Source of the DNA: a virus
Length of the DNA stretch: 44,026 nt
Virus record (IMG/VR): IMGVR_UViG_3300045120_000191
Location: 1 to 44,026 of that record
Direction: 5' to 3' (one strand)
The notes beneath the pieces are model-generated. The model was given only the letters and a program-made list of their open reading frames with translations. It ran no database searches and was not told the DNA's origin. Below, one piece after another: positions 24,299-43,337 of the stretch. The translations under genes and the position numbers were made by a program. Position 1 is the stretch's first letter. Every line of letters begins with the position of its first letter.

Positions 24299-24600
24299 GT
24301 AGGAAGGGGACGTTCGGAACGCGAGGAACTAGGGGGCGGGAATGTGGGGTAGTGACTTTCGAAGAAATCACGTAGTAGCATACGCTAAGCGGAAAATGAC
24401 GCGCGTCGAACGGGTCCCCTCAACTTCCGGTTGCACAACGCGCAGTTGTGCACGGGGGAGTTGCAAAACGCCCGCCGGGCGAGCCACAACTCCGGGTTGA
24501 TTGACCCGGCCGGCTCGCCGTGGTAGGATGAGAGATCGGCGCGGCTCGCGTCGAGGCGGCCCGGCGCAACCGGGGGTTGCACAACTCAAGGAACGCAACC
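24299..24600. other. Divergent control region with inverted repeats
   Basis: This gene-free stretch separates the two arms. It holds a hairpin TGCACAAC-5 nt-GTTGTGCA (24432-24452), a nested structure with outer GAGTTG/CAACTC (24458-24463, 24487-24492) around inner CGCCC/GGGCG (24469-24481), the rightward promoter 24501-24529, and a second TTGCACAAC at 24578. Such symmetry suits an operator or replication origin; which one is not shown. Confidence 0.6.
24501..24529 (+). promoter_or_regulatory. Rightward (early) promoter, first of the arm
   Basis: TTGACC (24501-24506), 17-base spacer, TAGGAT (24524-24529). Predicted start near 24536, leaving a 65-nt leader before ATG 24601. Confidence 0.65.
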
Positions 24601-25188
24601 ATGGCACGTAAGCACAAGACCATCCTCGACAACTCTAAGTTGCAGGAGGATACCACCATCGAAACCACAACCACCAATAGTGAGGCCATTATGACCACAA
24701 CCACCGATACCCCTCGCGTCCTCGAGGATCTGACCCAGCAGCTGAACGGCACGACCGCTCCGAGCGAGGAGCAGCAGAAGCGCGACGACGAGGAGATCGA
24801 ATACCAGATCGCGCTGCCGCGTTCGGTCGTCGCCAAGAAGTTCAAGATCCGCTACAAGCTGCTCGCGAAGGAGCGCGGCGACACGACGAAGGCGGCGAAG
24901 CGGAGCAAGTGGGACTGGCTCGCGCAGCAGATGGCTGAGCTGACTCTCACCGACAAGGCGAAACTCAAGGTCGCCGAGTTCGAAGAGCTGATGGCAGCCA
25001 ACGGCATCGATTGCAGCCGCTGGCCGAATCGCGCTCCGGGCTGGGAAGGCCGGCTGAGGATGACCGCCTGCTTGGTCCTGCGCAAGCAGATGGCAGACGC
25101 CGCCGATGGCGTTCTCTTCCTCGCAGACGGCACGACTCGCCAGATGCCGGAAGCACAGCTGGCCGAGCTGGTCGCAAAGTACGCCTAG
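24601..25188 (+). CDS. First early gene; carries the three-copy NGID domain
   Basis: 195 aa from ATG 24601, with AAGGA 8 nt upstream; ATG 24691 is an alternative. Residues 1-60 are Thr-rich and polar. Residues about 75-185 contain a domain also found in the proteins at 32594 and 37223: a Y-K-x-x-x-x-x-RG segment, DWLA, then F-E-E-L-M-x-A-NGID, G-W-E-GR-x-RMT and an L-A-x-K hydrophobic end. Function of the domain is unknown. Codon use is GC-rich, as in the two paralogues. The stop TAG overlaps stem II of hammerhead ribozyme 1. Confidence 0.8.
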   Translation: MARKHKTILDNSKLQEDTTIETTTTNSEAIMTTTTDTPRVLEDLTQQLNGTTAPSEEQQKRDDEEIEYQIALPRSVVAKKFKIRYKLLAKERGDTTKAAKRSKWDWLAQQMAELTLTDKAKLKVAEFEELMAANGIDCSRWPNRAPGWEGRLRMTACLVLRKQMADAADGVLFLADGTTRQMPEAQLAELVAKYA

Positions 25189-25251
25189 GCCGAAAGGGAG
25201 GGCGCGCGAATGCGCCCAACCTCCAACCGTGAAGCGGTTGCTGATGAGGCC
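25188..25251 (+). ncRNA. Type II hammerhead ribozyme 1
   Basis: All core elements are present in circular order with stem II open: GGCC (25188-25191), GAAA (25192-25195), stem III (25196-25221, 2 bp, a 2x2 internal loop, then 6 bp), U-C cleavage dinucleotide (25222-25223), stem I of 6 bp (25224-25229/25235-25240) with loop UGAAG, CUGAUGA (25241-25247), GGCC (25248-25251). Predicted self-cleavage after C25223. It begins in the stop codon of the preceding gene and ends 24 nt before the next ATG. Confidence 0.85.
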
Positions 25252-25275: not shown

Positions 25276-25458
25276 ATGAAAATGCAGACACGTGAATTCC
25301 ATGCGAAGCGATTCGCAGGGTTGCGCGAAATGAAGCGCGAGCGCGAAGAGTCGAAGCGCTGGGAACGATTCCTCGTGGATCGTGCCGAATTCGACGAACA
25401 CCTTAAGCGTACGCTCGATGTGTGGGAAGAAATGATGAAAAATGCAGGAGACAGGTGA
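25276..25458 (+). CDS. 60-aa charged helical early protein
   Basis: ATG 25276 with AAGGA upstream, directly after hammerhead 1; the upstream in-frame extension is inside the ribozyme and is rejected. The product is almost all Lys/Arg/Glu helix (LREMKREREESKRWERFLVDRAEFDE). No family recognised. Confidence 0.65.
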   Translation: MKMQTREFHAKRFAGLREMKREREESKRWERFLVDRAEFDEHLKRTLDVWEEMMKNAGDR

Positions 25459-26936: not shown

Positions 26937-27154
26937 AAACGATTGAACTCACCGACGACCAGTGCGAACTGATCTCGAAAATGCTCGACATGCTTGATCG
27001 CACTTACGAATGCCTCTCCATTTCGGAGGCGCTGAGCAGAGAACACATCGACAAAGACTGGGAACGCCGAATGCTGGAAGCATCACAGGAACTCGCCGAA
27101 GAGTTCCCCAGCACGGGATTCGAAGAAGGAGAAAGGCTGAGGATGCCGAAATAA
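26933..27154 (+). CDS. 73-aa early protein of unknown function
   Basis: ATG overlaps the previous stop. Starts KTIELTDDQCELISKMLDML, a compact beta-alpha pattern seen in small phage proteins; the rest is charged helix. No named family. Confidence 0.7.
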   Translation: MKTIELTDDQCELISKMLDMLDRTYECLSISEALSREHIDKDWERRMLEASQELAEEFPSTGFEEGERLRMPK

Positions 27155-27175
27155 ACGCGGCGGCTGAAGACTACC

Positions 27176-27204
27176 TTGACACGAACGCGCCGCTGTGCTA
27201 CGAT
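27176..27204 (+). promoter_or_regulatory. Sigma70-like promoter
   Basis: TTGACA (27176-27181), 17-base spacer ending TGC, TACGAT (27199-27204). Confidence 0.7.
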
Positions 27205-27246
27205 ACCAATGGGCCGATCCCGGACCCGAACACAGGAGATATGAAC

Positions 27247-27444
27247 ATGGCTCTTTCCTCTTTTTCGCTGACCTCGCGCGTCGCGGGTGAAACCAAAGGA
27301 GAATATGCGAGACGCCTCATAGCCCGAAAAGATGAACTAACTGCGAAGTGGCCCACAGCGGAATGGACCCCCGCTTTCGATGGGGTTGTGCTGACATACG
27401 AAGATGGAAAACCGCTCGCATACGTTTCCTATCGCGGCGCGTAA
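27247..27444 (+). CDS. 65-aa early protein of unknown function
   Basis: ATG 27247 is 8 nt after AGGAG; ATG 27241 is only 2 nt away and less likely. Contains SRVAGETKGEYARRLIARKDEL and a C-terminal beta part (GVVLTYEDGKPLAYVSY). No known family. The stop is 2 bases before stem II of hammerhead 2. Confidence 0.65.
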   Translation: MALSSFSLTSRVAGETKGEYARRLIARKDELTAKWPTAEWTPAFDGVVLTYEDGKPLAYVSYRGA

Positions 27445-27446
27445 CA

Positions 27447-27504
27447 GGTCGAAACCCGCCCCCTTTCGGCGGGTCTGCTGGTGAAGCCAGCACTGAAGAT
27501 GACC
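27447..27504 (+). ncRNA. Type II hammerhead ribozyme 2 (variant)
   Basis: GGUC (27447-27450), GAAA (27451-27454), stem III CCCGCC/GGCGGG (27455-27460, 27468-27473) with a 7-nt loop, U-C (27474-27475), stem I UGCUGG/CCAGCA with loop UGAAG (27476-27492), CUGAAGA core (27493-27499, N7 = A), one extra U (27500), GACC (27501-27504). Stem II has changed on both sides relative to copies 1 and 3 (GGUC/GACC against GGCC/GGCC), which is covariation. The extra U next to stem II may lower activity. Confidence 0.68.
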
Positions 27505-27523
27505 AACACAAGGAACATAGCAA

Positions 27524-27745
27524 ATGGAATACCCGAACTTCGATCACCACGTGAATAACCGCGTGTATTTCATCAATAAGGGGAACACCTACTGGGCGGT
27601 GAACGACGTCACCGCGGCTCGAAACGCCCCAGCCAGTGTGAAGGGTGCGGCTGAAATGATGCGAAAATACCCCTCCCGGTGGGTGGCTTTCGCTGACACC
27701 CGAGAACAGGCCATCGAAATGGCGAACAAAGACGCGAACAGCTAG
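27524..27745 (+). CDS. 73-aa early protein of unknown function
   Basis: AAGGA upstream of ATG 27524. Compact, with NRVYFINKGNTYWAVNDV and RWVAFADTREQAIEMA. No known family. Its TAG stop donates the first base of stem II of hammerhead 3. Confidence 0.7.
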   Translation: MEYPNFDHHVNNRVYFINKGNTYWAVNDVTAARNAPASVKGAAEMMRKYPSRWVAFADTREQAIEMANKDANS

Positions 27746-27798
27746 GCCGAAACCCGCCTTTCGGCGGGTCCGCTGGTGAAGCCAGCGCTGATGAGGCC
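27745..27798 (+). ncRNA. Type II hammerhead ribozyme 3
   Basis: GGCC (27745-27748), GAAA (27749-27752), stem III CCCGCC/GGCGGG with loop UUUC (27753-27768), U-C (27769-27770), stem I CGCUGG/CCAGCG with loop UGAAG (27771-27787), CUGAUGA (27788-27794), GGCC (27795-27798). Every conserved core base is present; stem III adds the A15.1-U16.1 pair. Predicted cleavage after C27770. A ribosome site (AAGGA) and ATG follow 13-23 nt downstream. Confidence 0.88.
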
Positions 27799-27820
27799 AG
27801 TTGAACTCAAGGAACATATC

Positions 27821-28138
27821 ATGAAGAAGATCAAGTGGGAAGAGCTAGCAGACTTAGTTCTGCTGCAAGCCGAAACGGTGCGCTGGCTGGAACAATGCCC
27901 GCAGCCGCGAGCAGACGGAATATTCGAAACGGTACAAACACTTGTCGACCGTCAGCGCGAAGAGATCGTACTCCTTTCGATGGAGTCAAAAGACGAGGCG
28001 CTGGTCGAAACGGTGCGCGGCTTCGTAGATGAAGGCGAGCTGCCCCTGAAGAACAACTGCACTGAATACATGGAAGAGGCAGAATTCTGGGACGCCGTTC
28101 TAGAAATGGTGAAAGAACGCATCGAAAGGATCAAGTAA
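27821..28138 (+). CDS. 105-aa acidic helical early protein
   Basis: ATG 27821 with AAGGA upstream, after hammerhead 3; the frame is open through the ribozyme but that part is not coding. Helical and acidic (ADLVLLQAETVRWLEQCPQP, EEAEFWDAVLEMVKERIERI). No family recognised. Confidence 0.68.
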   Translation: MKKIKWEELADLVLLQAETVRWLEQCPQPRADGIFETVQTLVDRQREEIVLLSMESKDEALVETVRGFVDEGELPLKNNCTEYMEEAEFWDAVLEMVKERIERIK

Positions 28139-28362: not shown

Positions 28363-28629
28363 ATGATACATTTTCACGCGGTTATGATCGACGAAACCGG
28401 ATGCGAATTCGGCGTGTCGCTCGAAGCGAAGAGCCGTGCAGACGCTTACGAACAGCTGCGCGAAGACTACCCAGAGTCGAGATGCGACCAGCTCGAATCG
28501 CGCCAAGACACCGAAGAGCGCGAGCAGCGAATGTATGAACACATCTCGCGCGGCGGCGACTGGGACGAAGATGGTAGGCCCATTTTCGGCGCAGACTACG
28601 AATATGACGAAGAGGAAGACGACGAGTAG
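28363..28629 (+). CDS. 88-aa acidic early protein
   Basis: AAGGA upstream of ATG 28363. Beta start (HFHAVMIDETGCEFGVSL), then EAKSRADAYEQLREDYPES, and a strongly acidic tail of Asp and Glu. Resembles in layout many small phage proteins of unknown function. Confidence 0.68.
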   Translation: MIHFHAVMIDETGCEFGVSLEAKSRADAYEQLREDYPESRCDQLESRQDTEEREQRMYEHISRGGDWDEDGRPIFGADYEYDEEEDDE

Positions 28630-28638
28630 AAAACTACC

Positions 28639-28667
28639 TTGACAAGAACGATCGCCCGTGCTACGAT
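28639..28667 (+). promoter_or_regulatory. Sigma70-like promoter
   Basis: TTGACA (28639-28644), 17-base spacer ending TGC, TACGAT (28662-28667); almost the same sequence as the promoter at 27176. Confidence 0.7.
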
Positions 28668-28710
28668 ACCAGTATGGGCGATCCTAGCCCGAACACAAGG
28701 AACAGGCGAA

Positions 28711-41888: not shown

Positions 41889-42262
41889 GTAACAATTTAG
41901 ACATAGCCAAGAACATAATTCTCGACGCGGGCCGAACCGTAGTTAAAGAACGGCCTGGGGTTCACGGATCCGCTGAAAATTCGTTCCAAATGATAGCCGA
42001 CATGTGGTCGACTTACATCAACCACGCACATTATGCGCGAACGTTATCAGTTGTTAAAATACAATTGCGTCCTGCCGATGTGGCGCAGATGATGGTTTTG
42101 CTGAAGCAATCGAGATCGATTTATGGGAATCCTCAAAATCGTGATAATTTCATTGACGCTACTGGCTATTCTGCTCTCGCCGGGATGCTGCAACTCACTG
42201 AATCCAATCTAGCCGAAAATAATAAGGAGGATGACGAAGATGAAGGCCCTGATAGAAAATAG
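41885..42262 (+). CDS. DUF6378-like phage protein
   Basis: 125 aa, GTG start overlapping the nuclease stop (GTGA). Pattern NIILDAGRTV-x(11)-SFQMIADMWSTYI ... ADVAQMMVLLKQSR ... DNFIDATGYSALAG matches the DUF6378 family of phage proteins, all-helical and of unknown role. Acidic tail. It overlaps the purZ start; operon membership makes a role near nucleotide metabolism possible but unproven. Confidence 0.75.
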   Translation: MSNNLDIAKNIILDAGRTVVKERPGVHGSAENSFQMIADMWSTYINHAHYARTLSVVKIQLRPADVAQMMVLLKQSRSIYGNPQNRDNFIDATGYSALAGMLQLTESNLAENNKEDDEDEGPDRK

Positions 42263-43337
42263 AGGCATCCATGCCATCGTAGACGGCCAGTTCGGATCGA
42301 CCGGCAAAGGTACGTTTGCATATTGGCTGGCTAAGCAGATCGCCGCGAATAATGTGTACTGCGAAGGCACCATATATTCTGGCGGCCCCAATTCCGGCCA
42401 CACGTTCTACCACGAGGGGGAGAAGCACGTCAATAAACAGCTCCCCACCATCCCGGTCGCGTTGAGCCTGATTACCAACCGTATTCAGGCCGCCTACCTT
42501 TCGGCGGGGGCAGTTATTAATCCCGCAGAGCTGTTTTCCGAGGCGCATAGATATTACAAGGTGCAAATATTTGTGCATCCTAATGCAGCCGTTATTCTAC
42601 CCGGAGATCAAGCCGCCGAAAGTGTAGGGTCAGTTGCGGAAGTGGCAGGAACCCGATCAGGAACTGGGGTTGCCATTGCCGGTAAGGTGTTGCGCGAACC
42701 AAATAGGATATGGCGCAATTTTGATAAGGCTGGGATGCCTCCGAACGTTGTGACGTTGAACCACCGCATCAAGCCTGAAGATAGGGCGTATTTTATGGAG
42801 GTTGCCCAGGGTTTTTCGCTGGGTATCAATCAGCCATTTTATCCGAAGGTAACATCCCGTGAGTGCACCGTCGCCCAAGGGATGGCTGATGCTGGCCTGT
42901 CGCCGTATCACCTTAAACGCGTTTATATGTGCATCCGCACATTCCCAATCAGGGTAGCCAACGTGGATGGGTATTCATCGGGTGATTGGTATCCTGATCA
43001 GCGCGAAACCAGCTGGGAAGAGTTGGGACAGGAGCCCGAGATTACAACCGTGACCAAACGTATTCGGCGCGTGGCCACGTTCAGTCAGAATCAGATGGAC
43101 GATGCTCTATACGCCAACCATCCAGACTTTGTGTTCGTCAATTTTCTCAACTATTTGTCGCTAGAAGCGCAAAAGGAGTTCCTAGATGACCTCAAAACAA
43201 ACAGACCGTTTGGAGTCCAACCCTTTAGCGTCATTGAGGGAAGAGGGCCTGGATACGAGGACATCACTGCCCCTGCCGATTTACAAACCATTCAGTACCA
43301 CAACGCTGGATCTGCCGCCAGCGCTGGAGATATTTGA
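42240..43337 (+). CDS. purZ: PurZ-type adenylosuccinate synthetase homologue
   Basis: 365 aa. ATG 42240 is 9 nt after AGGAGG; ATG 42231 directly abuts it and is unlikely. PurA landmarks are present: first phosphate loop QFGSTGKG (17-24), NSGHT with His54, AQGFSLGINQPFYPKVTSRE (189-208), and TTVTKRIRRV (269-278). The loop has Ser20-Thr21 where PurA has the catalytic Asp-Glu. This Asp-to-Ser change defines PurZ, which joins aspartate to dGMP to make the precursor of 2-aminoadenine nucleotides. The C-terminal half (YPDQ...WE-LGQ-PE-TTVTK) also resembles known phage PurZ. At 365 aa it is shorter than bacterial PurA (about 430). The last 50 residues overlap the MazG frame. Confidence 0.9.
   Translation: MKALIENRGIHAIVDGQFGSTGKGTFAYWLAKQIAANNVYCEGTIYSGGPNSGHTFYHEGEKHVNKQLPTIPVALSLITNRIQAAYLSAGAVINPAELFSEAHRYYKVQIFVHPNAAVILPGDQAAESVGSVAEVAGTRSGTGVAIAGKVLREPNRIWRNFDKAGMPPNVVTLNHRIKPEDRAYFMEVAQGFSLGINQPFYPKVTSRECTVAQGMADAGLSPYHLKRVYMCIRTFPIRVANVDGYSSGDWYPDQRETSWEELGQEPEITTVTKRIRRVATFSQNQMDDALYANHPDFVFVNFLNYLSLEAQKEFLDDLKTNRPFGVQPFSVIEGRGPGYEDITAPADLQTIQYHNAGSAASAGDI

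Follow-up and report, generated by a model that had tools for sequence, protein, structure and literature searches.

A stretch of 44,026 nucleotides of viral DNA (IMG/VR record IMGVR_UViG_3300045120_000191, here termed the window) carries hammerhead ribozymes among its small early genes. This arrangement raises the question of what a self-cleaving RNA does between two genes of a phage: whether it parts a polycistronic transcript into separate messages, responds to translation, marks the boundary of a mobile unit, or gives rise to a circular RNA.

Three type II hammerheads in the early region

The window represents a podophage-like genome whose plus strand carries the early and replication genes, the head genes being on the minus strand. 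Among the encoded proteins are a portal, a head protein, a terminase, a primase, a DNA polymerase A and an adenylosuccinate synthetase of PurZ-like type, and the nearest named phage, judged by the portal (38% identity), is Ochrobactrum phage vB_OspP_OH. The synthetase gene (42231-43337; phrog_1211, PF00709) adjoins that of the family A DNA polymerase, and given this pairing the phage may use 2-aminoadenine DNA.

The element at 27745-27798 (H3) is a hammerhead of 54 nt (GGCC-GAAA-CCCGCC(UUUC)GGCGGG-UC-CGCUGG(UGAAG)CCAGCG-CUGAUGA-GGCC) in which all of the core bases are present. Folding by computation gives precisely the hammerhead secondary structure as the minimum free energy (MFE) fold (-29.3 kcal/mol, z -3.3), and the element's score of 37.2 bits just passes the gathering threshold (37) of the Rfam model RF02276 (Hammerhead_II). 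Stems I and III are closed, the latter by UUUC, and stem II is open, which is the type II permutation. The first-pass annotation had placed a 54-nt hammerhead with a complete core here, and its coordinates and stems are borne out by the sequence, the Rfam match and the MFE fold; its name, "Hammerhead ribozyme 3," is apt as to the hammerhead, and wrong if type III was meant (RF00008, with stem III open and stems I and II closed), which is ruled out by the closed stem III and the open stem II. That annotation covered two elements, and a further core-perfect copy (H1) is present in the window. The ribozymes and the parts of H3 are as follows.

25188..25251, plus strand: type II hammerhead H1 (structure scan; fold; model R1, 46.9 bits, E 1.9e-13); predicted cleavage 25223/25224
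27447..27504, plus strand: type II hammerhead H2 (Rfam, 31.1 bits, below gathering; R1, 53.8 bits); predicted cleavage 27475/27476
27745..27798, plus strand: type II hammerhead H3 (Rfam RF02276, 37.2 bits; independent model R1, 72.7 bits; MFE fold)
27745-27748/27795-27798, plus strand: H3 stem II
27749-27752, plus strand: H3 GAAA
27752-27758/27763-27769, plus strand: H3 stem III
27770, plus strand: H3 C17; predicted cleavage 27770/27771 (after H17)
27771-27776/27782-27787, plus strand: H3 stem I, with UGAAG loop
27788-27794, plus strand: H3 CUGAUGA

R1 is a covariance model for which 57 ribozymes were taken from other phages and none from the window, and everything in the window other than the three elements scores at most 9.2 bits with it. 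The MFE folds of H1, H2 and H3 all have stems I and III closed and stem II open. H2, which lies 295 nt upstream of H3 and is 90% identical to it over 41 nt, retains every core base, but a single U (27500) is inserted between A9 and stem II, and this extra core nucleotide may make the ribozyme slow or inactive. H1 has a perfect core, and its stem III is broken by a GA/AA internal loop; relaxing the threshold to E<=5 still does not bring it into the Rfam listing for RF02276, for which the length and the interruption of its stem III are the probable cause. A role of the three elements as terminators was rejected, as their stems have no trailing U-run and a terminator scan reports no site there.

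All three ribozymes are on the same strand in the early arm, among the following genes and candidate promoters.

24501..24529, plus strand: promoter-like TTGACC-17-TAGGAT, reading into the gene before H1 (consensus match only)
24600..25188, plus strand: first early gene (ATG 24600; ORF 24577-25188), with a UAG stop that runs into the first base of H1
25276..25458, plus strand: 60-aa gene downstream of H1 (from the sequence)
27176..27204, plus strand: extended -10 sigma70-type promoter TTGACA-17-TACGAT, reading into the genes of H2 and H3 (consensus match only)
27241..27444, plus strand: 67-aa gene upstream of H2 (in-frame ATG within ORF 27010-27444), whose stop ends 2 nt before H2
27524..27745, plus strand: 73-aa ORF between H2 and H3 (ORF list), with a UAG stop that runs into the first base of H3
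27821..28138, plus strand: 105-aa gene downstream of H3 (ORF 27776-28138), starting 22 nt after stem II, with AAGGA

The first series thus runs from the promoter-like site at 24501 through the gene at 24600-25188 and H1 to the gene at 25276-25458, and the second from the promoter at 27176 through the gene at 27241-27444, H2, the 73-aa gene at 27524-27745 and H3 to the gene at 27821-28138. Promoter-like sites with TG before the -10 element stand ahead of genes at 24501, 26584, 27176 and 28639 (10 found in the region, 3.5 expected). Two 43-bp repeats (27166-27208 and 28629-28671; 84% identical), each with TTGACA-17-TACGAT and TG before the -10 element, have the appearance of repeated early promoters. 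The scans found no relatives of the 73-aa and 105-aa proteins, although the 105-aa product resembles, by eye, a gene of a related contig (L224), and no phage relatives of the locus were found at the nucleotide level.

A compact ribozyme family beside stop codons

The wider occurrence of these elements was surveyed with a pattern that fixed the core bases together with some of stem II and the initial stem III pairs, and left stem I and the remainder of stem III free; an earlier, looser viral pattern was dropped, about one fifth of its loci having passed the structure scan. Because the survey pattern left stem I free, its pairing represents covariation: of the 142 distinct viral sites among the matches listed, 116 have a perfect 5-bp stem I, where shuffling of the partners leads one to expect 8.4 (maximum 17), and 81 different stem I sequences are represented. 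Pair counts from the structure-scanned sites provide no independent evidence, since the scanner selected those sites for pairing. A chance origin was also rejected, as none of 300 dinucleotide shuffles of the window produced an element with a stem I of at least 6 bp and a stem II of at least 4 bp, and the covariation likewise speaks against it.

With the window counted in, a strict structure scan of public viral contigs yielded at least 180 unique ribozymes on at least 121 loci. Among the matches listed, two or more ribozymes occur on 30 of 122 locus-strands at a median spacing of 484 nt, which is about one gene, and only one locus has ribozymes on both strands. Searches of whole records found eleven ribozymes in one record of 67.6 kb, eight in another and seven in each of two more; in the record with eleven (L107, 67,627 bases), the type II hammerheads stand at intervals of approximately one gene, and some of the intervals hold paralogous genes. 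Across 84,980 genomes of bacteria and archaea the same pattern matched 58 stretches, and the chromosome of the planctomycete Singulisphaera sp. GP187 (L281) has four matches to the type II hammerhead pattern within 8 kb.

H1, H2 and H3 belong to a compact form of the family, which has a stem I segment of 17 nt (6 bp, with a loop that is often U-NNN-G) and a stem II that is usually 4 bp long. A longer form has a stem I segment of 20-24 nt, mostly a 3-bp stem II and often 4-7 loop-tail pairs, in which it resembles the published pseudoknotted type II ribozymes (PMC3088659); the ratio of compact to longer forms gives no estimate of their abundance, because the pattern favours a short stem I. In the compact form, pairing of at least 4 bp between loop I and the 3′-tail was found at 18 of 110 sites (20.9 expected), which is not above chance. 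The corresponding pairing is 3 bp in H3, 2 bp in H2 and 4 bp including a wobble in H1, which falls short of a pseudoknot; such a pseudoknot is common but not universal in RF02276, and its absence is no bar to type II membership. The compact phage form is undercounted by RF02276, with many copies scoring below its cut-off. Of the 10 copies that cmscan lists for this model in L107, three pass the cut-off.

The position of the ribozymes relative to genes was computed with a simple ORF caller for 163 phage sites among the matches listed. The upstream stop codon ends -4 to +12 nt from stem II in 77% of these sites (7% for random positions), with a peak at -1 to +2 nt, and the downstream start, nearly always an ATG with a Shine-Dalgarno match, lies at a median of 26.5 nt past stem II among the matches listed. 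Since the stop abuts the ribozyme and the start with its Shine-Dalgarno sequence follows shortly after, the ribozyme fills the gap between the stop codon and the ribosome-binding site. In bacterial genome contigs, the rule is followed by 15 of 22 sites with an intact stem I versus 9 of 37 with a broken one; in 20 of those 37 the reading frame is open across the whole element, and these 20 are probably chance matches. A gene-specific role was rejected, given that 149 downstream proteins have no common family and are mostly of unknown function.

Fate of the early transcript

We consider it probable that the three type II hammerheads cut a polycistronic early transcript between its genes, so that separate and individually stable messages arise. 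Each ribozyme, with a stop codon on one side and the next gene's Shine-Dalgarno sequence on the other, would cleave itself after C17; the upstream message would then end shortly past its stop codon, closed by the stem III hairpin and bearing a 2′,3′-cyclic phosphate, and the downstream message would begin with the stem I hairpin and a 5′-OH. In the computed folds of the products, the stem III hairpin is one base from the upstream 3′ end and the stem I hairpin is at the very 5′ end, and both are stable. Ends with a 2′,3′-cyclic phosphate or a 5′-OH slow host exonucleases and RNase E, and by extension both of the new ends should resist the exonucleases and the 5′-end-dependent RNase E of the host; resistant ends would give the neighbouring genes separate and individually stable messages. 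The fold, the core, the family membership, the position rule and the covariation are computed results; we infer that the ribozymes cleave in the cell, that the ends would be protected and that expression would benefit. Synthetic insulators of the RiboJ type cut ahead of a gene and thereby give it a standardised leader with a 5′ hairpin; the predicted products share the 5′ hairpin with these, but RiboJ is engineered and is a single ribozyme before a gene rather than one between successive genes.

The cleavage sites proposed in the first-pass annotation, 27475/27476 and 27770/27771, coincide with those predicted after H17 and are 295 nt apart. The 73-aa ORF does lie between them, as that annotation said of two flanking elements, although only the downstream element is canonical, the upstream one having the extra U. 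Its suggestion that the gene is released as a monocistronic RNA gains support from the ribozymes placed between stop and Shine-Dalgarno sequence on both sides, the promoter at 27176-27204, the many analogous sites in other phages and the published cleavage of similar arrays (PMC3088659).

The same annotation also allowed for circularisation of a small RNA. In such a reading the RNA of the 73-aa gene (27476-27770) would be excised and its ends resealed by a hybrid hammerhead or by the host RtcB; repeated ribozymes with the capacity for both steps would characterise a viroid-like or retrozyme circular RNA. The released RNA would indeed hold both halves of a hammerhead, with stem I and CUGANGA at its 5′ end and GAAA and stem III at its 3′ end. 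However, the hybrid ribozyme of this 295-nt RNA would have a stem II of GGCC/GACC with three of four pairs (a C-A mismatch) and a core with the extra U. In other phages, neighbouring copies are cross-compatible in 33 of 58 cases (57%) versus 44% of random pairs, which is weakly higher and possibly explained by the likeness of copies within a genome. Spliced or circular products were sought for similar arrays and none was found (PMC3088659). A circle is thus unsupported, and we regard it as highly improbable.

The position of the stop codon invites another reading, in which stem II and the GAAA strand would be shielded by a ribosome that terminates at the adjoining stop; cleavage would then be held back, and cutting would serve as a readout of upstream-gene translation. 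In most of the phage sites the stop overlaps or abuts stem II, and from the general extent of a ribosome footprint the 5′ strand of the ribozyme would lie within that of the terminating ribosome. Tight packing of phage genes and a short 3′ UTR, however, would lead to the same position without regulation, and such a translation-coupled switch seems unlikely.

Comparison with the closest relatives counts against the processing account and also bears on the age of the elements. No hammerhead was found in the available sequences of L220-L224 and Ochrobactrum phage OH, so the elements are dispensable in this lineage and their gain or loss is fast. In L224, whose portal is 79% identical to that of the window, the junction orthologous to H1 (near the 5′ end, on the reverse strand) has after the stop codon a plain hairpin, GGGCGGC-GCGAAU-GCCGCCC, without a ribozyme core; the corresponding place in H1 is occupied by its stem III, GGGCGC-GCGAAU-GCGCCC. 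These sequences are consistent with a 3′ hairpin that is older and of which the ribozyme is an elaboration, or else with loss of the ribozyme, and the presence of the hairpin alone in L224 implies that it may do part of the job of the ribozyme.

Absence from close relatives would also be expected if the ribozymes were mobile or recombination-prone boundaries that travel with small gene cassettes, processing being secondary or neutral. Copies are more alike within a contig than between contigs (0.69 vs 0.53), as are H2 and H3, and of the 12 inter-contig pairs in which a flank is homologous, 9 have homology detected on one side of the ribozyme only, a count uncontrolled for ordinary shuffling of accessory genes. 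The core and the stems are nevertheless under clear selection, and we find this explanation quite unlikely. One-sided DNA homology at ribozymes is seen in L113/L148, L153/L181, L169/L204 and other pairs, as if units of ribozyme plus gene had been exchanged.

Relation to known phage hammerheads

Perreault et al. (2011) described several prophage hammerheads that flank single genes or short blocks and proposed a function in the processing of long phage RNA; tandem phage hammerheads were shown to cleave in vitro and in E. coli (PMC3088659). A review repeats this account (PMC6155905), and a later paper reports that hammerheads are enriched in the vicinity of other ribozymes and of Mu-like phage genes (PMC10085705). 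The copies in the window share with the type II ribozymes of RF02276 the permutation, the core, the location in a phage gene cluster and the occurrence of multiple copies flanking single genes, but they are compact, with a 4-bp stem II, a 6-bp stem I and a U-NNN-G-like pentaloop, in a form that shows no pseudoknot between loop I and the 3′-tail above chance, whereas most published type II ribozymes have a pseudoknot (PMC3088659). As a set of ribozymes flanking small genes, they are a further case of the tandem phage hammerheads reported in 2011 (PMC3088659). The triple hammerhead flanking ardA in Agrobacterium tumefaciens likewise comprises three ribozymes that part small phage-type genes; that array cleaves in vitro and in E. 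coli (PMC3088659), and the genes differ, no ardA having been found beside the window ribozymes. The hammerhead of Haloviruses HF1 and HF2, upstream of a helicase gene, similarly precedes a start codon closely, and the 5′ end of its transcript was mapped near the cleavage site, but it is a single copy with a variant core (PMC3088659).

Stop codons go unmentioned in the main text of the 2011 paper (PMC3088659). As far as the mainly open-access literature shows, the stop-codon rule, the arrays of up to 11 ribozymes and the poor Rfam coverage of the compact form are new. It is tempting to speculate that phage early operons are generally punctuated by compact type II hammerheads, which would stand at the stop codon in series of up to about ten, cut the gene junctions, respond to the terminating ribosome and be swapped between phages together with a gene as cassettes; we advance this only tentatively and hold it doubtful as a whole. 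Since 2011 it has been a standing question what hammerheads do in bacteria and phages, and one specific answer, the cutting of polycistronic phage RNA between genes, becomes directly testable through the strict placement at the stop codon, the hairpins that cleavage would leave at both new ends and the long arrays.
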